32,070 bases of DNA from Thermoplasmata archaeon (GTDB taxonomy: Archaea; Thermoplasmatota; Thermoplasmata; Thermoplasmatales; Thermoplasmataceae): positions 1 to 32,070 of the forward strand of contig JAKACH010000013.1 in assembly GCA_021821635.1 (NCBI GenBank), written 5' to 3'. This document shows positions 1,954 through 32,070 of the stretch, piece by piece. The position numbers were made by a program, and so were the translations under genes. The notes under the pieces are model-generated. The model had not been told where the DNA came from. It saw only the letters and a program-made list of their open reading frames with translations, and ran no database searches. The stretch's first letter is position 1. Each line of letters opens with the position of its first letter.

Positions 1954-2286
1954 TCAGATCTCGCCTGATTCGCTTGGATAGCCGAGAGACCTCCATTCTT
2001 CGATACCGCCCCTGAAAGCAAGCGCCTTGAAACCATTCTCCCTAAGAATGTCCGCGGCAAATACTGAGGACATACAACTCTCATTCTTGCAATACGTGAC
2101 TATCGTCTTGCTGCTGTCCAGATGAGAGAAATCATGGTCCTCAATCTCGTGGAATGGTTTCCAGATTGAGTTCTTAATTCTGTACTCTACGAACAAATTT
2201 CTAGACATAATGTGGACAGGTAAAATTGAATCACTTTGAAGTAACTGAAGCAGCTGTCGCGCAGTTATGGTCTGATCATCCACCAT
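1954..2286 (-). CDS. Rhodanese-like domain protein
   Basis: This is a single rhodanese domain of 110 residues. Such proteins carry sulfur as a cysteine persulfide and pass it to acceptors such as cyanide, thiols or tRNA-modifying enzymes. The active-site loop is visible as TYCKNESCMSS, with the likely catalytic Cys66 and a second Cys71 in the same loop, followed by the usual helix and the closing FRGGIEEWRSLGYP element. The N-terminal D-x-R signature of typical rhodaneses is degraded (HIMSRN), so substrate range may differ. It is transcribed divergently from the flavin reductase-like gene, with about 96 bases between them. Its convergent neighbour is the basic protein ending at 1937. Confidence 0.8.
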   Translation of the reverse strand: MVDDQTITARQLLQLLQSDSILPVHIMSRNLFVEYRIKNSIWKPFHEIEDHDFSHLDSSKTIVTYCKNESCMSSVFAADILRENGFKALAFRGGIEEWRSLGYPSESGEI

Positions 2287-2382
2287 GCACTATAGAAATC
2301 GATTTGAAAAATGTTTCTGGTTAGTTTATCTGTTAGTAGTTTTTGTACACAAAATTTATTGCGCCTCTTTGCATGGTAAGAC

Positions 2383-3108
2383 ATGCCTGAGCAGTTCAAC
2401 CTAAAGCTTGTCAGCCGGGAGTACGTTGCCAAAGACACAATGGCGTTCCAATTCAGGATTATCAATAATACCTTGACTTTCAAGCCAGGCCAGCACATAC
2501 AGCTTATGATACCTGAAATATACGATAAAAACAAGGTTGAGGGTACACGCTTTTTTTCCTTGATTTCTGATCCAGCAGACCATGGGAGCTTATCCATTGC
2601 AACCCGCCTTTCAAATTCAACCTTCAAGAGGTATCTTCTTACCAGCGACCTAAACAAGGCATTCATTGCATTTGGACCGCTTGGATCTTTTGTCGCTCCC
2701 CTTGGGGAACGTCCGCTCATTCTTTTTGCTCTCGGCATAGGCATAACAGCTCTTCTGCCAATTGTGAGAGAAGCTACCGCATCAGGGAACAAGAAAGTAT
2801 TCCTTTTCTATATCAACAACAAATTGGAGGAAGTCGCGTTTGCCTCAGAACTCTTCAATCTTCAGAAGAAATATGGATACTTTAATTTCTATCCATATCT
2901 TCTGGGCGGGAACCTTGGGATTGAGTCATACCGGACTGGGAAACCCTCGGACGAGTCTATTATCGAGGCACTTGGAACTGATTTGCAAAACATGGATGTA
3001 ATGATGGCCGGTCCGCCCAGGCAGGTTTATGAGTTCAGGAAACAGCTCCAGTCTATCGGGATCCCCCAGGCAAGCACAAAAGTGGAAATATTTTCAGGAT
3101 ACCAGTAA
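2383..3108 (+). CDS. Ferredoxin-NADP reductase-like FAD/NAD(P)H oxidoreductase
   Basis: This 241-residue protein has the two-domain layout of the ferredoxin reductase superfamily. An N-terminal FAD-binding barrel carries the RFFSLIS element (RxYS-type isoalloxazine-binding motif, residues about 56-62). A C-terminal NAD(P)H-binding Rossmann-like domain has FALGIGITALLPI at about 114-126, MAGPPRQV at about 207-214, and VEIFSGY at the end, matching the closing element of the family. No [2Fe-2S] domain is fused, so it probably passes electrons between NAD(P)H and a separate protein or small carrier. A TATA-like aaaatttatt about 28 bases before the ATG suggests a leaderless mRNA. The exact partner is unknown. 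Confidence 0.85.
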   Translation: MPEQFNLKLVSREYVAKDTMAFQFRIINNTLTFKPGQHIQLMIPEIYDKNKVEGTRFFSLISDPADHGSLSIATRLSNSTFKRYLLTSDLNKAFIAFGPLGSFVAPLGERPLILFALGIGITALLPIVREATASGNKKVFLFYINNKLEEVAFASELFNLQKKYGYFNFYPYLLGGNLGIESYRTGKPSDESIIEALGTDLQNMDVMMAGPPRQVYEFRKQLQSIGIPQASTKVEIFSGYQ

Positions 3109-10442: not shown

Positions 10443-13100
10443 ATGATCATAGGAGATTCCGAAACTGTCTCCTCATACAAGAACCAGTGGGACCGTTTTT
10501 TTGATAAGTTTGGATACAGAGACAAGATAACAAAGCTCAGGGATTTTTACCCCGATCAGAAGTCGCTCAGTGTGCCTTACCAGGAGATAGCTAACTTCGA
10601 TAATGACTTCGCAACCTCCCTGAAAGACAACCCTGCGATCTGCATCAGGGCGGGAGAGGATCTAATCAAGTCTTTCCTCGAGTCCAGCAAGGATTTCGAG
10701 TCAAAGAGGATCAACATTCGCATAACTAGTTTGCCGGAAAAAGATTTCAGCATTGAGATACGGGACATAAGAAGCGACAGGATCGGAAAGCTGATCAGCG
10801 TTTCAGGCATAGTTCGAAAAAACACAGAGGTACTACCAAGGATACAACTAGCTGTTTTTCAGTGCTCAAAATGTGCCAGCCTGACGTCACTCGAGCAGAG
10901 CCGTGGTAAACTTGAGGAACCATCAAGATGCGAATCATGTGGCGAGGAAAGGCCCAAGATACGGTTCAAGCTCATGCCCGAGTTATGCGAATTCGTAGAC
11001 TACCAGAAGATAGAGCTCCAGGAAAACCCGGAGACAATAGAGGGCGGGGCACAGCCACAGAGAATTTCTGTCGTCCTTGAGGATGACATAACCGGCTTCA
11101 TTTTCCCAGGTGACAGGATTACAATAGACGGCATACTAATGTCAGAGCAGAAGAGGTCTGGAAACCTGCTGCTGACAGAGTTCGCCACACATCTTTATGC
11201 GCTGAGCTTCTCGAAAGAGACAAAGGAGATTGAAACACTAAACATAACGCCTGAGGAGGAAGCGCAGATCATTGAGCTTTCCAAATCAGACAATGTACTT
11301 GATAAATTCACAAAATCCATTGCACCATCGATCTACGGCCATGAGGATATAAAAAGAACACTTGCTCTGCAGATGTTCGGCGGCATAAGGAAAATAATGA
11401 AGGATGGGACAAAGATCAGGGGCGACATACACATTCTGCTGGTGGGAGACCCTGGTACTGCAAAATCCCAGCTTCTGAGATTCATGGCTGATATTTCCCC
11501 TAGAGGAGTTTTGGCGCTTGGTAAAGGTGCAAGTGCAGCAGGCTTGACGGCAGCAGCTGTGAGAGACGAATTCGGTGAAGGAAGGTGGACACTCGAGGCC
11601 GGAGTTCTTGTTCTGGCAAACAACGGTCTTGCCGCAATAGATGAGCTTGACAAGATGGATCCGCAGGATACAGGAGCAATGCATGAGGCCATGGAACAGC
11701 AATCATTTGCCTATGATACTGCCATACAGCTTGGGGACGGATCCACGATGCGGATAGGTGAATTCGTTGATTCAATGATCGAAAACAACCCTCACAGGGT
11801 AGAAGCCGGCAAAGATTGCCAAATACTCGAAGTGGAGGAAAAAATTGTGGTGCCGACATCCGATTTTGAAGGCAGCGGCTTCACCTCAATACGACAGGTG
11901 AGCAGGCATCTGGCTCCGCACGAAATGATTAAAATCGAGGTCGAAGACGGTTCCTCAGTGGAGGTGACGGCAAATCATCCATTCTGGGTTGTCAAAAACG
12001 GATCACTTCAGCTTGTGGATGCAGACCAGGTAACTGATTCAGACTATGTGATATCAACTTTATCCAAAGATAATGGGAATGAAGCGATGGACTATCTTGA
12101 GAGCCTTGTCTCTGGAACAAGGGCAAGAAGATGGTTCCGTGACCTCACACTGAAGCGGATATCTAGGATCTCAAAGGTTTCTTACTCGCGGAAATGGGTT
12201 TACGATATAGCAGTTTCAGACAACAGCACGTTCGCCAACAGCGACATGGTGCTTCACAATTCCATTACCATATCCAAGGCTGGAATAATGGCAACTTTGA
12301 GAGCAACCTGTTCAGTGCTGGCAGCCGCAAACCCGACCTTCGGGAAGTACAATGCCAATCTTCCACTGTCGGAACAGACAAAATTCCCTCTGCCTCTTCT
12401 CTCCAGGTTTGATGTCATTTTCAAGCTTGTGGACAGGGTCTCAGACGATGTTGACTACCGGCTCGCAAACCATATACTGAAAACTCACAAGGTGGGTGAA
12501 ATATACAGGGGAATGGAGTCAAACGAAATATCTGACTATACAATATCTGAGGAGAACGACCTTATACCGCAGATTGAGAAGAACCTTATGAGAAAGTACG
12601 TTTCATACTCAAGAAGCAAGGTTTTTCCCAGACTTTCTGACCAGGCAATAGATCTCATAAGGAATGATTACGTAAGGACAAGGAAGAGGAGCACTCCCGA
12701 TACCACACCCATAACACCAAGGCAGCTTGAATCAATTATCAGGCTGGCAGAGGCATCGGCAAAGTCACGTCTTTCTGCAGTTGTCACAAGAGAGGATGCT
12801 CTTCTCGCTATAGAAATAATAACCAGTTATCTCGAAAACGTATCAAGCGTGGATGGAGTCATAGATACCAACATCATAATGACTGGAACGACCTCAAGGC
12901 AGAGGGGAGAGCTTGAGAGCGTCTTCCTGATAATAAAGGAACTGTTGAAGGAATCAAATTACGCTGAGGTATCCGACGTAATAGCGGAGGGAAAGCTCAG
13001 GGGGCTTGACGAGAACAAGATAAGGGGAATAATCTCGAAGCTGAAATCCGATGGGCAGATTTACGAGCCATTCGACAACAAGCTCAAGGTGGTATCCTGA
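10443..13100 (+). CDS. mcm: Replicative MCM helicase precursor containing a mini-intein
   Basis: MCM is the hexameric DNA helicase of archaeal replication. The precursor is 885 residues; without the intein it is 699, the usual archaeal length. The N-terminal domain has a C-x2-C...C-x2-C zinc site (Cys141, 144, 163, 166). The AAA+ core has Walker A GDPGTAKS at 335-342, Walker B DELDKMD at 400-406, and the arginine-finger element LLSRFDVIF. A winged-helix domain closes the protein. Residues 421-606 are an in-frame intein placed just after HEAMEQQ, in the helix-2 insert region of the ATPase, so helicase activity needs splicing. The stop overlaps the ATG of the DUF424 gene by 1 base. Confidence 0.97.
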   Translation: MIIGDSETVSSYKNQWDRFFDKFGYRDKITKLRDFYPDQKSLSVPYQEIANFDNDFATSLKDNPAICIRAGEDLIKSFLESSKDFESKRINIRITSLPEKDFSIEIRDIRSDRIGKLISVSGIVRKNTEVLPRIQLAVFQCSKCASLTSLEQSRGKLEEPSRCESCGEERPKIRFKLMPELCEFVDYQKIELQENPETIEGGAQPQRISVVLEDDITGFIFPGDRITIDGILMSEQKRSGNLLLTEFATHLYALSFSKETKEIETLNITPEEEAQIIELSKSDNVLDKFTKSIAPSIYGHEDIKRTLALQMFGGIRKIMKDGTKIRGDIHILLVGDPGTAKSQLLRFMADISPRGVLALGKGASAAGLTAAAVRDEFGEGRWTLEAGVLVLANNGLAAIDELDKMDPQDTGAMHEAMEQQSFAYDTAIQLGDGSTMRIGEFVDSMIENNPHRVEAGKDCQILEVEEKIVVPTSDFEGSGFTSIRQVSRHLAPHEMIKIEVEDGSSVEVTANHPFWVVKNGSLQLVDADQVTDSDYVISTLSKDNGNEAMDYLESLVSGTRARRWFRDLTLKRISRISKVSYSRKWVYDIAVSDNSTFANSDMVLHNSITISKAGIMATLRATCSVLAAANPTFGKYNANLPLSEQTKFPLPLLSRFDVIFKLVDRVSDDVDYRLANHILKTHKVGEIYRGMESNEISDYTISEENDLIPQIEKNLMRKYVSYSRSKVFPRLSDQAIDLIRNDYVRTRKRSTPDTTPITPRQLESIIRLAEASAKSRLSAVVTREDALLAIEIITSYLENVSSVDGVIDTNIIMTGTTSRQRGELESVFLIIKELLKESNYAEVSDVIAEGKLRGLDENKIRGIISKLKSDGQIYEPFDNKLKVVS
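11703..12260 (+). other. Mini-intein within MCM (186 residues, no homing endonuclease)
   Basis: The intein is an in-frame protein-splicing element. It begins at Ser421 (SFAYDTAIQLGDGSTMRIGE, block A) and has a block B TxxH motif, VTANHPFWV. Its C-terminal blocks are KWVYDIAVSDNSTFANSDM and VLHN, and the extein resumes with Ser607 (SITISKAGI). The penultimate His and terminal Asn needed for Asn cyclisation are present, as is a Ser at position +1. Residue 1 is Ser rather than the more common Cys. Only about 185 residues separate the splice sites, too short for a LAGLIDADG endonuclease, so it is no longer able to home by itself. Joining the exteins restores the conserved HEAMEQQ-SITISKAGI sequence of MCM. 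Confidence 0.93.
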
Positions 13101-28135: not shown

Positions 28136-28354
28136 ATGATAATTCCGGTAAGATGTTTTAGTTGTGGCAAAGTCATTGGTTCGGATTACAAGAAATTCTC
28201 CGAGAAGGTGCAGAAAATCAGGAACGAGGGCAGGGAACCAAAACCGGAGGAGATCCAGAAAATCCTAGACGATCTTCACCTGACCAGATACTGCTGCAGA
28301 AGAATGATTATTTCTCACATTGACCTTATCGATGAAATAATCCCATTCTCTTAA
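28136..28354 (+). CDS. rpoN: RNA polymerase subunit N (Rpb10 homologue)
   Basis: This 72-residue zinc-binding subunit of archaeal RNA polymerase helps assemble the D/L/P platform. The zinc site is visible as Cys7 and Cys10 in [11 protein letters not shown] and the Cys53-Cys54 pair in TRYCCRRM. In other archaea rpoK and rps2 often follow in the same operon. Here a tRNA gene and a mobile element follow instead. Confidence 0.95.
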
Positions 28355-28369
28355 TCTAGAAGCATATCT

Positions 28370-28442
28370 GGGACCGTGGGGTAGCCTGGTATCCTACCAG
28401 CTTGGGGTGTTGGTAACCTGAGTTCAAATCTCAGCGGTCCCA
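28370..28442 (+). tRNA. tRNA-Pro (anticodon GGG)
   Basis: The cloverleaf is read by hand. The acceptor stem is GGGACCG paired with CGGTCCC; the D arm carries TAGCCTGGTA. The anticodon stem is CCAGC/GTTGG around loop TTGGGGT, with anticodon GGG at 28404-28406. The variable loop is TAAC; the T stem is CTGAG/CTCAG around TTCAAAT; the discriminator base is A. CCA is not encoded and no intron is seen. It begins 15 bases after rpoN on the same strand. The 3' end, from about 28424, is shared with the 3' end of the integrase gene on the other strand, marking it as an integration site. Confidence 0.95.
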
Positions 28443-29395
28443 TCAAGTGCAAGTGCGGTCCCATGCGGATTTGCACTTGTTACACTTATTTTATTCATGC
28501 GAAAAAACTCTCCCATGTGCTCCGATGCGCGTTCCGCTACATCTCTGGATTTGATGTGCGTGTAGACCTGGGTGCTCGCCAAGCTCGCATGCCCCAGGTG
28601 GATTTGAACCTCCCTGATGTCTAAACGTTTTCCGTCTTTCCCATCCCTCAAAAGAGCGGTGGCACACCAGTGCCTTGCAGCATGTGCATGGAATTTCGGT
28701 ATTCCTGCCCTTTTGGCGATCAGCTTGATTATGTTTCTTGCCCAGCCATAATTCATCCTTCCTTTCTCTGTCGTGAAGAGGGCAACCGGGTCCGTCTTTG
28801 ATCTATACATGTCGATGTATTCGTGCAGCCTCTCTGAGAGACTCTGCGGTAACCCGATAATCCTCGGTGCCTCGCCCTTCTCGCTGATTATCGTCAAAAG
28901 GTTCCCGTCTACATGTTCGAGGTTTATCCTGATGAGTTCGCCAATCCTCATTCCACCTGCGAAAAGAAGATCCACTATGCATGAGTTCCTTGAGGCGTTC
29001 GCCCTGTCGCCGAATGATGCAGCCGCCTTCCTGATCCTCATGACATCTTCATCGGTCGGTATCCAGGGCTCCTGCGACCTGCTCGCCTTGAACCTCGGTA
29101 TGTTCACTGGCTGCCCCAGGAATCTCGCCCATGCTTCGAGATCGTATATGACATGGTTCAGGGTCTGCGGCTTGATTCCCCTCTCCGATTCCCTGACAAG
29201 CTCGTCCAGGACGTCATTGACCATCATCTTCGGATTAAGCATGTCACAGATCTCACCGAACCTGCGGATAGTGCGGATCTGCTTTGGTATGGTGGAAGTC
29301 GCATGATAACCGCCGTAGGTCCTTGCCCACTGCCTGTACTCGCCCAGTTTCGCCTCGAGTTGTGGGTTCTTCCTCTCCCGTCTGGTTGGGCTCAT
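28424..29395 (-). CDS. int: Tyrosine recombinase (element integrase)
   Basis: This 323-residue integrase cuts and joins DNA at the attachment site. Residues about 12-95 form the SAM-like core-binding domain. The catalytic set is complete: Arg150 in FAGGMRIGEL, Lys173 in SEKGEAP, His238-x-x-Arg241 in HAHAARHW, His269 in LGHAS and the nucleophile Tyr278 in TQVYTHI. The gene is intact, not split as in SSV-type integration. Its last five codons and stop lie inside the tRNA-Pro 3' half on the opposite strand. The ATG overlaps the stop of the 47-codon ORF (ATGA). It resembles XerA-like archaeal recombinases, but its location makes it the element integrase. Confidence 0.92.
   Translation of the reverse strand: MSPTRRERKNPQLEAKLGEYRQWARTYGGYHATSTIPKQIRTIRRFGEICDMLNPKMMVNDVLDELVRESERGIKPQTLNHVIYDLEAWARFLGQPVNIPRFKASRSQEPWIPTDEDVMRIRKAAASFGDRANASRNSCIVDLLFAGGMRIGELIRINLEHVDGNLLTIISEKGEAPRIIGLPQSLSERLHEYIDMYRSKTDPVALFTTEKGRMNYGWARNIIKLIAKRAGIPKFHAHAARHWCATALLRDGKDGKRLDIREVQIHLGHASLASTQVYTHIKSRDVAERASEHMGEFFRMNKISVTSANPHGTALALDGTAEI
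28434..28464. repeat. Direct repeat of the tRNA-Pro 3' end (likely attachment-site sequence)
   Basis: GCGGTCCCAT occurs at 28434-28443, forming the end of the tRNA, and again at 28455-28464. It could be arm or core sequence for the integrase, or a leftover from repeated integration. Confidence 0.5.
28444..28479. repeat. Perfect 9-bp inverted repeat just after the tRNA
   Basis: CAAGTGCAA at 28444-28452 and TTGCACTTG at 28471-28479 flank an 18-base loop that contains the second GCGGTCCCAT. A T-rich stretch follows at about 28480-28494. It may end the tRNA transcript or bind the integrase. Confidence 0.5.
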
Positions 29396-29535
29396 GCTGT
29401 CACTCCGCTGGAACTGGCTTGGGTGTCTGCTCCCGAAGACCTCAACTCCTCAAGGTTTGCCCGGCCGCTCTTTGAAAACGAGAGCGACACCCATCTGGCT
29501 TCCAAATCATCGTTAAATCTGGCAGGCGAAAGCAT
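29392..29535 (-). CDS. Small coupled ORF between recT and integrase (47 residues)
   Basis: The ATG at 29535 shares a base with the recT stop (TAATG), and the TGA at 29392-29394 overlaps the integrase ATG (ATGA). Both junctions are typical of translational coupling, and the ORF fills the gap exactly. The peptide begins MLSPARFNDDLEARW, has a polar, slightly amphipathic N-terminal half and a Ser/Ala/Gly-rich tail. No cysteine motif or membrane segment is present. Excisionase-like or regulatory roles are possible from its position only; I recognise no family. Confidence 0.5.
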   Translation of the reverse strand: MLSPARFNDDLEARWVSLSFSKSGRANLEELRSSGADTQASSSGVTA

Positions 29536-30611
29536 TATTTCGAGCCTCCCTGTGCATCTCCGTCAACGACAATCTCCTCCTCGGAGTAGATGCCCCCTAA
29601 TTCTTCCGGGAACATTCTGCTGAGCAGGAGCGACAGGGCGCACTTTTCAAGCATCATGTGCTTCTTTCCCGCCCACATCTTTGTCGGCGATCCATCCTTT
29701 CTCTTCTTCTCGTATTCTGAAAGATAGGCTGTGGCCTGAATTGGATGTGCCATGTCCTTCCTCCATCCTTTCGCCTCGTATGCTATCAACTCTCCCTCTG
29801 CATCGGTTATCGCTCTTGTTTCATAACCATCGAACTGGTGGGTGTCCATCGCCTTTGAAAGCTTTCCATGGATGGATGCCATGATAACGACTTCATCATC
29901 CTGTTTCCAGAACCAGATCTGCTTTTTCAGTGGATCAAGGCCGCTCTTGAACGCAACATACAGGAATACGGAAAACTCATCGTCCGACGCATCCCTCGCT
30001 ATCATCCTCCGAATAAGCTTTACTTGCTCGTCAGTCCAGTTAGTCTTTACAATTATGCCGTTTGAGTTCCGAGTTTGTTTTGGGTCCGCACTAACCTGAA
30101 CAGGAGGGCTTGATGCGCTGTCGATGAGTTTCTGAAGGTGCTCCTTATCCAGCGAATCAAGTGGGGCTCCTGCCAGATCCTTGACGGATAGCCTATGCTG
30201 CATCAGTAGGGCATTTACTTTCTCCCTCAGTGCGACAAGTTCCGAATCAGGCTCGAGGGCTTTCTTATCCGTGGTCTCCTCATCGCTCTTGCCGGATTCT
30301 TTTGCCTCTTCCCTGGCATCATCCAGTTTGAACTTTGCCAGTTCAGGAAGCAGCTTCACCATCTCCCTGAAAGCATCAGTCTTGCTGATAACGTGGTTCT
30401 CTTCCTTCTTGTAGAGGTCCACAAGTTTTATGCAGAGTGCTTTCTCCCTCGGTGTGAACGAAGCTGGAGGCTCTTTCTGCTTGACAAACCTTATCCAGGC
30501 TGTTTCTCCACCATCGGCAGTGAAGAGGATCTTGTACGGATCGTCCGTATAAACGAACAGGTGTGCCTCGACGTAGGCAGTCTGCCTTTTAGTCATGACC
30601 TGCTCAGTCAT
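29535..30611 (-). CDS. RecT/Bet-family single-strand annealing protein with N-terminal extension
   Basis: RecT/Bet proteins coat single-stranded DNA and pair complementary strands during viral recombination. Residues about 200-345 match Bet: WTDEQVKLIRRMIARDASDD, then FKSGLDPLKKQIWFW, IHGKLSKAM, and the C-terminal HMMLEKCALSLLLSRMFPEE with LGGIYSEEEI. The first about 190 residues are not part of the usual family. They contain a possible small alpha/beta domain (residues 1-60), a charged Glu/Lys linker near 105-125 and a helical SAP-like stretch near 130-165. A strong GGAGGAG about 8 bases before the ATG supports this start. A partner exonuclease is not in the window. Some 83 bases separate it from the coiled-coil gene. 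Confidence 0.85.
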   Translation of the reverse strand: MTEQVMTKRQTAYVEAHLFVYTDDPYKILFTADGGETAWIRFVKQKEPPASFTPREKALCIKLVDLYKKEENHVISKTDAFREMVKLLPELAKFKLDDAREEAKESGKSDEETTDKKALEPDSELVALREKVNALLMQHRLSVKDLAGAPLDSLDKEHLQKLIDSASSPPVQVSADPKQTRNSNGIIVKTNWTDEQVKLIRRMIARDASDDEFSVFLYVAFKSGLDPLKKQIWFWKQDDEVVIMASIHGKLSKAMDTHQFDGYETRAITDAEGELIAYEAKGWRKDMAHPIQATAYLSEYEKKRKDGSPTKMWAGKKHMMLEKCALSLLLSRMFPEELGGIYSEEEIVVDGDAQGGSK

Positions 30612-30694
30612 AGATTACTCCTCCCATTCTGTACACAATTGCTGGCCTCGCTTTTATTCCCCAAATTTATTTCGTTTTTCATTTTCTTCCCTCC

Positions 30695-30880
30695 TCATAT
30701 GAGTGTTATTCTTGGCGCACTTTCCTCGTTTTTGTGCGCTGAAACCTTGTCCATCTCCTCAAAATCCCTGACCTTGCTCTCAAGATCCTCGATCTTCTCT
30801 GCCATCTGCAGGATCAGGCCCTGCAACTGTTTCTGCGTCAATTCCTCATTTTTCAGAGCGTCTTTTACGTGTTTCATCAT
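30695..30880 (-). CDS. Small coiled-coil protein
   Basis: This 61-residue charged protein begins MMKHVKDALKN. The central residues about 12-45 form a continuous heptad-rich helix (LQGLILQMAEKIEDLESKV), followed by a polar tail. It could oligomerise or be a small regulator; no family is recognised. Its ATG overlaps the stop of the zinc-finger gene (ATGA), so they are co-translated. A 14-codon frame starts at its own stop (ATGA) and is probably too short to matter. Confidence 0.6.
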   Translation of the reverse strand: MMKHVKDALKNEELTQKQLQGLILQMAEKIEDLESKVRDFEEMDKVSAHKNEESAPRITLI

Positions 30881-31122
30881 TTCTTATCCCTTCTCCCCTT
30901 AAGCAGCCTCAAAAATTTCATGCCGTTTTTAGTGAAAACCAAAAGTGTAGAATTTTTATGCTTCACGGCCGCAGCACACTGGTTTTCATGCTCCCTCGCC
31001 TTGATCATGTTAGGGAAAGCTGCACCGCACTTCTCGCAGTTCCATTCTATTATTTCAAGCGGAACTGGACCCAGCGGATTGTTATTATAGATGACCCCTT
31101 GCCTAACCAATATGCTCACCAT
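30877..31122 (-). CDS. Small C2HC zinc-finger protein
   Basis: This 81-residue protein has one zinc-finger-like motif: Cys29-x2-Cys32, x12, His45-x3-Cys49 in WNCEKCGAAFPN and KAREHENQC. Such C2H2/C2HC proteins are common in archaeal viruses and plasmids, usually as DNA-binding regulators. The C-terminus is basic (LKGRRDKK). The frame opens at GTG 31134; I prefer ATG 31122, but this is uncertain. It overlaps a 28-codon ORF upstream and the coiled-coil gene downstream. Confidence 0.7.
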   Translation of the reverse strand: MVSILVRQGVIYNNNPLGPVPLEIIEWNCEKCGAAFPNMIKAREHENQCAAAVKHKNSTLLVFTKNGMKFLRLLKGRRDKK

Positions 31123-31189
31123 CCTCGTTATCACAATCGAAGACCGTCAGCCTCGAAGGCTTTCCAATGGAAATTGTTGCTACCATCAT
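31103..31189 (-). CDS. Possible 28-codon ORF at the head of the minus-strand small-gene run
   Basis: ATG-ATG at 31189 is preceded by GAGGTG about 5 bases upstream, a good ribosome-binding site. The 28-residue peptide includes ISIGKPSRLTVFDCDNEDGE and overlaps the zinc-finger start. It may be a leader for translation of the next gene or a small protein. Confidence 0.3.
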   Translation of the reverse strand: MMVATISIGKPSRLTVFDCDNEDGEHIG

Positions 31190-31613: not shown

Positions 31614-32009
31614 TCATTTCACCACCTCAACTATTATGTCATCATAAATCGCATCTGCCCCTTCGTCCCCCAGGAAGAATTTCGCATGAATGGTCAATTC
31701 CCTAAACAATGCTTTTGTTATTTCGGAGCGTGTCCCCTCAATTGATGCTGATACAACCGAACATTTCCCATCATATTCGATAGAAAGTGAAGCGAATTCG
31801 CTTCTATCCCATGCTATCTGTTCTTTTCTCTCTTTATAGGCGCTTAGGCTTTCCACATATCTCTCCACCAATGTCATTTTAGTATCATGCTGCGGGCCAC
31901 TAACTAAAACGTTGAATTCGTCAGGAATCCTCCCAACCACAAATTTGTGTTCCCCGACCTCACACACATAAGGTGGATTTCGTTGTACAAAGTCCTGTTC
32001 ATGACCCAT
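31614..32009 (-). CDS. Protein of unknown function in the mobile element
   Basis: This 131-residue soluble protein has mixed alpha/beta character: strand-like EVGEHKFVVGRIPDEFNVLV, a central helix with VERYVESLSAYKERKEQIAW, then strands SLSIEYDGKCSVVSASIEG and a C-terminal helix. No family is recognised. ATG 32009 is preferred over the TTG at 32030 because GGAG lies about 6 bases upstream. A preceding frame ends at 32023, just before it. Confidence 0.6.
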   Translation of the reverse strand: MGHEQDFVQRNPPYVCEVGEHKFVVGRIPDEFNVLVSGPQHDTKMTLVERYVESLSAYKERKEQIAWDRSEFASLSIEYDGKCSVVSASIEGTRSEITKALFRELTIHAKFFLGDEGADAIYDDIIVEVVK

Positions 32010-32022
32010 TGCATCTCCTTCA

Positions 32023-32070
32023 CTACCCAACTCGCTCCCCCCTTTTGATCTTCTCCTTGCAGGATTCGCA
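32023..32070 (-). CDS. C-terminal end of a further element gene (partial)
   Basis: A minus-strand frame is open from the window edge to TAG at 32023-32025 and contains a CESC (C-x2-C) close to the end, followed by a basic tail. It ends 13 bases before the next ATG, as expected of another gene in the same operon. It is probably a small zinc-ribbon protein, but too little is visible. Confidence 0.3.
   Translation of the reverse strand, partial: CESCKEKIKRGERVG

Follow-up and report, generated by a model that had tools for sequence, protein, structure and literature searches.

An archaeal RecT/Redβ-type annealase with a portable N-terminal module that may stand in for the Redβ C-terminal tail

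Introduction

What does a RecT-type annealase gain from 190 residues in front of its annealing core, when almost nothing follows behind it? This question is raised by a gene near the end of a 32,070-nucleotide stretch of DNA (the window in the following) from an acid-loving archaeon of the Thermoplasmata, which is contig G000:C21 of a draft genome of 79.8% completeness; the relatives with which we compare it are draft metagenome assemblies (MAGs). RecT and Redβ typically, though not by strict definition, carry their annealing domain at the N-terminus, as a structural survey of these proteins describes (PMC11783212), and a partner-binding tail at the C-terminus. The C-terminal domain of Redβ binds λExo and probably SSB, and while annealing is possible without it, recombination is not (PMC5052646, PMC9512822). 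The literature thus places the partner-binding part of annealases at the C-terminus, and annealase-based genome engineering beyond the usual bacteria is limited by host compatibility. In the following, we describe the gene, the element that carries it and two further proteins with the same extension, and discuss what this extension might do.

Results

The annealase gene and its core

The annealase, here called P0001, is encoded on the minus strand at positions 29,535–30,611, as delineated from the list of open reading frames, profile matches and Foldseek. Its reading frame begins with ATG, spans 358 amino acids and has no internal stop. Six nucleotides upstream of the ATG lies GGGAGGAG, a likely ribosome-binding site (30,618–30,625, minus strand); the start is supported both by this sequence and by the two homologous proteins described below, P0002 and P0003, which start at the same place.

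Residues 191–347 (29,571–30,041, minus strand) form a RecT/Redβ annealing core. The Pfam RecT profile PF03837 matches P0001 with 88.6 bits (E 5e-25, cut-off 24) over profile positions 2–187 of 198, and the RecT/Bet families of PHROG match with up to 109 bits (phrog_2780). With TIGR01913 (bet_lambda), the score of 71.9 bits falls slightly below the equivalog cut-off of 76.95; judged by its sequence, P0001 is Bet-like and not a Bet equivalog. A profile built from seven sequences finds λ Redβ (PDB 7ujl) with an E-value of 1e-20. In the AlphaFold (AF2) model, the core has a pLDDT mostly above 80, with a maximum of 98, and displays the β-hairpin, helix, three-stranded sheet and helix of the solved Redβ and RecT structures; the best solved structures found by Foldseek are λ Redβ (7ujl, E 8e-8, probability 1.00) and phage A118 RecT (7ub2, E 2e-4). 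Given this agreement between Pfam, PHROG, the PDB profile and the AlphaFold/Foldseek matches, the assignment is secure, and P0001 is confirmed as a RecT/Redβ single-strand annealing protein by family and fold. A preliminary description, made from the DNA sequence alone, had already proposed a RecT/Bet-type annealase on the basis of Bet-type motifs, IHGKLSKAM and FKSGLDP among them. These motifs are indeed present, profile and structure comparisons place residues 200–345 inside the RecT fold, and the proposed extension of 190 residues is exact, with the RecT match starting at residue 191.

An inverted layout

With 190 residues before the core and 11 behind it, P0001 departs from the usual RecT/Redβ layout. 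In the 43 complete viral RecTs closest to its core, the N-terminal extension measures 3–50 residues (median 11) and the C-terminal tail 62–231 residues (median 91); tails of 59–213 residues are also found in the viral relatives of P0002. By contrast, the cores of P0001, P0002 and P0003 all end within 2–11 residues of the C-terminus. A RecT of another genome binned to Thermoplasmatota, a provisional binning (L009:1498-2748, minus strand), also has a C-terminal core, preceded by an unrelated, zinc-ribbon-like extension. Several other RecT matches in the phylum resemble phage contigs and may be misbinned; they are left out of any claim about archaeal frequency.

A recently moving element at tRNA-Pro

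A tRNA-Pro (GGG) gene at 28,369–28,444 (plus strand, ARAGORN) is the presumed attachment site, and identity with a sister species breaks there. It is overlapped by the 3' end of a gene for a tyrosine recombinase, an integrase of 323 residues (28,424–29,395, minus strand; PF00589, 88.7 bits). Two features expected of a tRNA-integrated element, an integrase at the tRNA and a break of identity at the tRNA, are present. Like the integrase gene, those upstream of it all lie on the minus strand: the annealase gene, a 61-residue open reading frame without a family in Pfam and PHROG searches (30,695–30,880), a gene for an 85-residue zinc-finger-like protein (30,877–31,134) and further reading frames up to the contig edge, among them one of 138 residues to which the same searches assign no function (31,614–32,030). 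The zinc-finger-like protein resembles DUF7128, with a PF23447 score of 25.2 bits, below the cut-off of 25.7, and its gene overlaps the 61-residue frame by 4 nt.

Between position 28,300 and the window end, the window and a second species of its genus (G003, MAG YP2.bin63) differ at one position only (28,363). From the tRNA onward, the two are 100% identical, whereas the flanking core genes are only ~78–87% identical, which marks the element as mobile and recently moving. The P0001 annealase is absent from the four other genomes of the genus. P0001 is therefore carried by a recently moving element integrated at tRNA-Pro, and the archaeal mobile element that had been supposed as its setting is borne out by the integrase at the tRNA and by an element that is identical across two species with diverged flanks.

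The contig of the second species (L011) extends the element by ~5.4 kb, such that ~9 kb of it are seen in total. The additional part encodes a winged-helix regulator, a PKD-repeat protein, and MazE-like and small putative DNA-binding proteins. It also contains a tail-to-tail gene pair (L011:1411-2241, plus strand, and 2238-2699, minus strand; DUF1828 and DUF6978-like) that matches the PADLOC candidate defence system PDC-M24. A search for an attL/attR direct repeat found no second tRNA 3' end in L011, whose contig stops before the far end of the element. In a sister species, a relative of the winged-helix gene lies at the same tRNA-Pro (L299, G004:C12, 1-1140), with no integrase or annealase before the contig edge; this is perhaps a decayed or rearranged copy.

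Elsewhere in the window, the gene for the MCM replicative helicase (10,443–13,100, plus strand) appears to contain a small intein, an insert of ~170 residues. The extein sequence EAMEQQ is followed by an insert that starts with S-F-A-Y-D and ends with VLHN, after which the sequence continues with S-I-T-I-S-K-A-G. The first residue of this putative intein would be serine and not the usual cysteine, and the insert is too small for a homing endonuclease.

The N-terminal module

When we searched 100 relatives with the whole P0001 sequence, the extension, and nothing else of P0001, was matched by two proteins that are both encoded in a third genome from the same family (G047, MAG YP2.bin70). These proteins, P0002 (353 residues) and P0003 (283 residues), have ~110 N-terminal residues in common with P0001. 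We refer to this region, residues 1–110 of P0001 (30,282–30,611, minus strand; delineated by sequence searches, BLASTP and leave-one-out HMMs), as the module. It begins in all three proteins with the pattern [E/D/A]H-x-F-x-Y/F-x-DD-x-x-K ... W-I/L-R/K-F-I/V. Pairwise BLASTP E-values are 3e-10 for P0001 and P0002, 1e-7 for P0001 and P0003, and 7e-14 for P0002 and P0003; leave-one-out HMMs score the real sequences at 43–57 bits, compared with maxima of 9–12.5 bits among 5,000 shuffles each. On these scores, the homology of the P0001 extension to P0002 and P0003 is beyond chance. The module is followed in P0001 by a linker, residues 111–186 (30,054–30,281, minus strand), for which sequence searches found no relatives and in which AF2 predicts a small helical segment (123–167). 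The thought that this segment is a moved copy of the usual annealase tail found no support in sequence and remains an idea.

A module HMM run against 77 genomes of the family, 117 of the order and 400 of the class retrieves only P0001, with its identical copy in the second species, P0002 and P0003; matches at E >0.003 are partial. The same three proteins alone emerge from pattern scans covering 84,980 species as well as viral contigs, with patterns that are narrow and may miss diverged members. The carriers are thus three distinct proteins, two of them from one genome, and their named sources are metagenome-assembled genomes. Neither search found a stand-alone copy of the module, which is always fused to an annealase-type core. 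The module has no match in Pfam, in the PDB by sequence or by Foldseek, in keeping with the preliminary description, which had called the extension unfamiliar. Its net charge is near zero or negative (-1, -6 and -1 in the three proteins). In the models of P0001 and P0003, it appears with low to moderate confidence as a small beta-meander followed by helices; the strands are predicted at a pLDDT of only ~50–62 from a partly misaligned alignment. MAFFT misplaced the N-terminal fragments of the relatives: in the alignment behind the P0001 fold, those of the two relatives are correctly placed over roughly their first 51 residues only, and the P0003 fold includes none of them.

One might suspect that the fusion, or the joint between element and host, is an artefact of assembly or binning, given that the comparison genomes are draft assemblies from metagenomes and that the element reaches the contig edge in the window. 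This suspicion is largely refuted and its probability is negligible: the identical joint is present in two genomes whose flanks differ, and the extension lies in one open frame with its own ribosome-binding site, has a GC3 close to that of the core (0.57 versus 0.60) and is conserved at 19–31% identity in other proteins. We regard the module as a separate, portable domain of these archaeal elements and the extension as the new part of P0001.

The cores of P0002 and P0003

By its C-terminal part, P0002 falls into phrog_10048 (E 4e-41), a family listed with 'unknown function'. In Acinetobacter phage Silvergun, a relative of the P0002 core adjoins genes for an exonuclease and an SSB, and in Geobacillus virus E2 another relative comes after a Gp157-like gene. 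The family of the P0003 core is found mostly in uncultured viruses, including the methanogen viruses vir080 and vir075. The two core families are homologous (hhalign probability 94.9%, E 5e-8), whereas that of P0003 has no sequence relation to RecT that hhalign could detect (0.3%).

The model of the P0003 core (pLDDT ~90–97) consists of a hairpin, a helix, three strands and a helix, the same order as in the RecT core of P0001 and in agreement with the β-sheet and β-hairpin that have been described as the shared annealase motif (PMC11783212). Among predicted structures of viral proteins (BFVD), the confident matches that carry a name (probability 0.90–0.99) consist of Sak3 annealases, Erf, RecT and the Lactococcus phage GE1 recombinase; among solved structures, the matches are weak and to dsRBD-like folds. 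As none of the 41 members of the P0003 core family matches an annealase Pfam family, the term 'Sak3/Erf-like' holds at the level of the fold only. From predicted fold, motifs and gene neighbours, we consider it probable that the P0002 and P0003 cores are annealases, and sequence comparison and models assign them to a different, Sak3/Erf-like superfamily from the RecT core of P0001.

The families phrog_10048 and phrog_22961, both listed with unknown function, are mutually homologous and look like annealases. The module is absent from the viral relatives of the P0002 and P0003 cores. Three members of the P0003 core family from uncultured viruses (L145:2623-3381, L150:2401-3417 and L175:2629-3363) have N-terminal extensions of 124–200 residues and almost no C-terminal tail; these extensions do not match the module.

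The distribution of the module over two superfamilies bears on what could be the main rival to an adaptor role, namely an intrinsic regulatory or oligomerisation role. The module would then be part of the annealing machine, controlling the oligomer (ring or filament), inhibiting the core as long as it is not required or making a second contact to nucleic acid, with no outside partner. This would fit the observations that the multimer properties of Redβ alter when its N- or C-terminus is removed (PMC5052646) and that the module always occurs covalently attached to an annealase-type core. We nevertheless consider such a role unlikely: cores of two superfamilies would need different oligomer contacts, which disfavours control of the oligomer, and the charge of the module is unlike that of a DNA-binding domain.

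Exchange of cores between sister elements

The P0001 and P0003 elements are related. Both occupy a tRNA gene, to which the integrase gene is adjacent; the annealase gene lies close upstream of the integrase gene in the same direction. They share the integrase (33% identity), the winged-helix regulator (43%) and a 76-residue protein (71%). They also have the module in common, but not the annealase core, which indicates that the core was exchanged while the module was kept.

The position of the annealase close upstream of the integrase in both elements might suggest that it assists the integrase in excision or integration and does not act in replication or repair. We hold this to be very improbable, given that tyrosine recombinases work without an annealase, that P0002 does not adjoin a tyrosine integrase and that phage RecT genes are grouped with replication genes (PMC8093625).

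Beyond the P0003 annealase, a stretch of its element (L013:10237-19710) contains a match to PDC-M30A/M41A, a PD-(D/E)XK protein with an AAA_11 helicase behind it, and DndC-like and HNH proteins; these genes are candidate defence cargo.

No nuclease partner recognised in ~9 kb of the element

According to the preliminary description, the extension may tether a nuclease, an SSB or the host replisome, giving an archaeal version of the phage recombination pair. The pairing with a nuclease is not supported: in the ~9 kb of the element seen, that is, its part in the window and L011 1-9139, no λ-Exo-, YqaJ- or RecE-like gene was recognised. The PD-(D/E)XK protein and helicase of the P0003 element, considered as a partner, appear to be separate cargo outside the annealase operon. 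The broader idea of a tether has gained strength, since one extension recurs on three annealase-type cores that differ from each other and lack the usual partner-binding C-terminal tail.

A related possibility is that the module docks an exonuclease encoded elsewhere, in an archaeal two-component (SynExo) recombinase of the λ Red kind. Redβ and RecT do bind their exonuclease through an extra domain (PMC5052646, PMC9512822), and a gene for a PD-(D/E)XK protein does exist in the P0003 element; that gene, however, lies in probable cargo, and the element of P0001 as far as seen has no nuclease to offer. We regard this arrangement as improbable.

Discussion

We propose, with a probability of roughly 0.6, that P0001 is the RecT/Redβ annealase of a tRNA-Pro element and that its N-terminal module is a partner-recruiting adaptor in place of the Redβ C-terminal tail. 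Judging from its family and fold, the core (residues 191–347) would bind single-stranded DNA and anneal complementary strands as RecT and Redβ do, and this activity would serve the repair, replication or recombination of the element's DNA. The module (residues ~1–110) would link the annealase to a partner that it recruits, most probably a replication or ssDNA-binding component of the host or the element, and would thereby do the job of the C-terminal tail in phage Redβ. The annealing activity, the adaptor role and the kind of partner are what we infer here; family, fold, mobility, the common module, the swapped cores and the layout are observed. A wider generalization, which we offer tentatively and with somewhat less than even confidence, is that Thermoplasmata elements plug interchangeable cores, RecT-type or Sak3/Erf-like, via this N-terminal adaptor into a component of the host, for instance RPA/SSB, the clamp or primase.

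If the proposal is true, the adaptor would be an archaeal answer to the problem of host compatibility, which phages solve with a C-terminal tail. It would offer a direct handle on annealase recruitment in archaea, could serve as bait for the partner there and might open a way to annealase tools for Thermoplasma-type archaea. Independently of its role, three proteins are added to a sparse archaeal set, and phrog_10048 and phrog_22961 are linked to the annealase fold.

Comparison with known systems

That annealases have rarely been described in archaeal elements, as the preliminary description stated, is correct as to their rarity; they are, however, already known there. Among 10,280 single-strand annealing proteins (SSAPs), 33 entries are archaeal, 25 of them RecT and 8 Redβ (PMC11783212), and RecT cores as in P0001 are present in the methanogen viruses PhiF3 (Methanobacterium virus, ORF1) and vir515 (Methanosarcinales virus). 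The latter resembles P0001 further in its N-terminal extension of more than 100 residues and its near lack of a C-terminal tail, whereas PhiF3 has the usual tail; the N-terminal regions of both do not match the module. An archaeal RecT as such is thus not new. What is new is the occurrence of one portable module on annealases of two superfamilies, together with the inverted layout, of which we found no description in the open-licence literature that was searched.

Compared with the λ Redβ/RecT family (PF03837; 7ujl, 7ub2), the P0001 core is alike in sequence, fold and size (~160 residues), but it is C-terminal, has no tail behind it, is preceded by the 190-residue extension and is seen without a partner exonuclease. 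The cores of P0002 and P0003 resemble instead the annealases of the Sak3/Erf/Rad52 group and phrog_10048/phrog_22961, in a superfamily other than that of the P0001 core. Lastly, the three-helix bundle of the Redβ C-terminal domain, which binds λExo and probably SSB (PMC9512822), sits at the opposite end of the protein and has no sequence link to the module that we could find; it is this domain that we propose as the module's functional counterpart.
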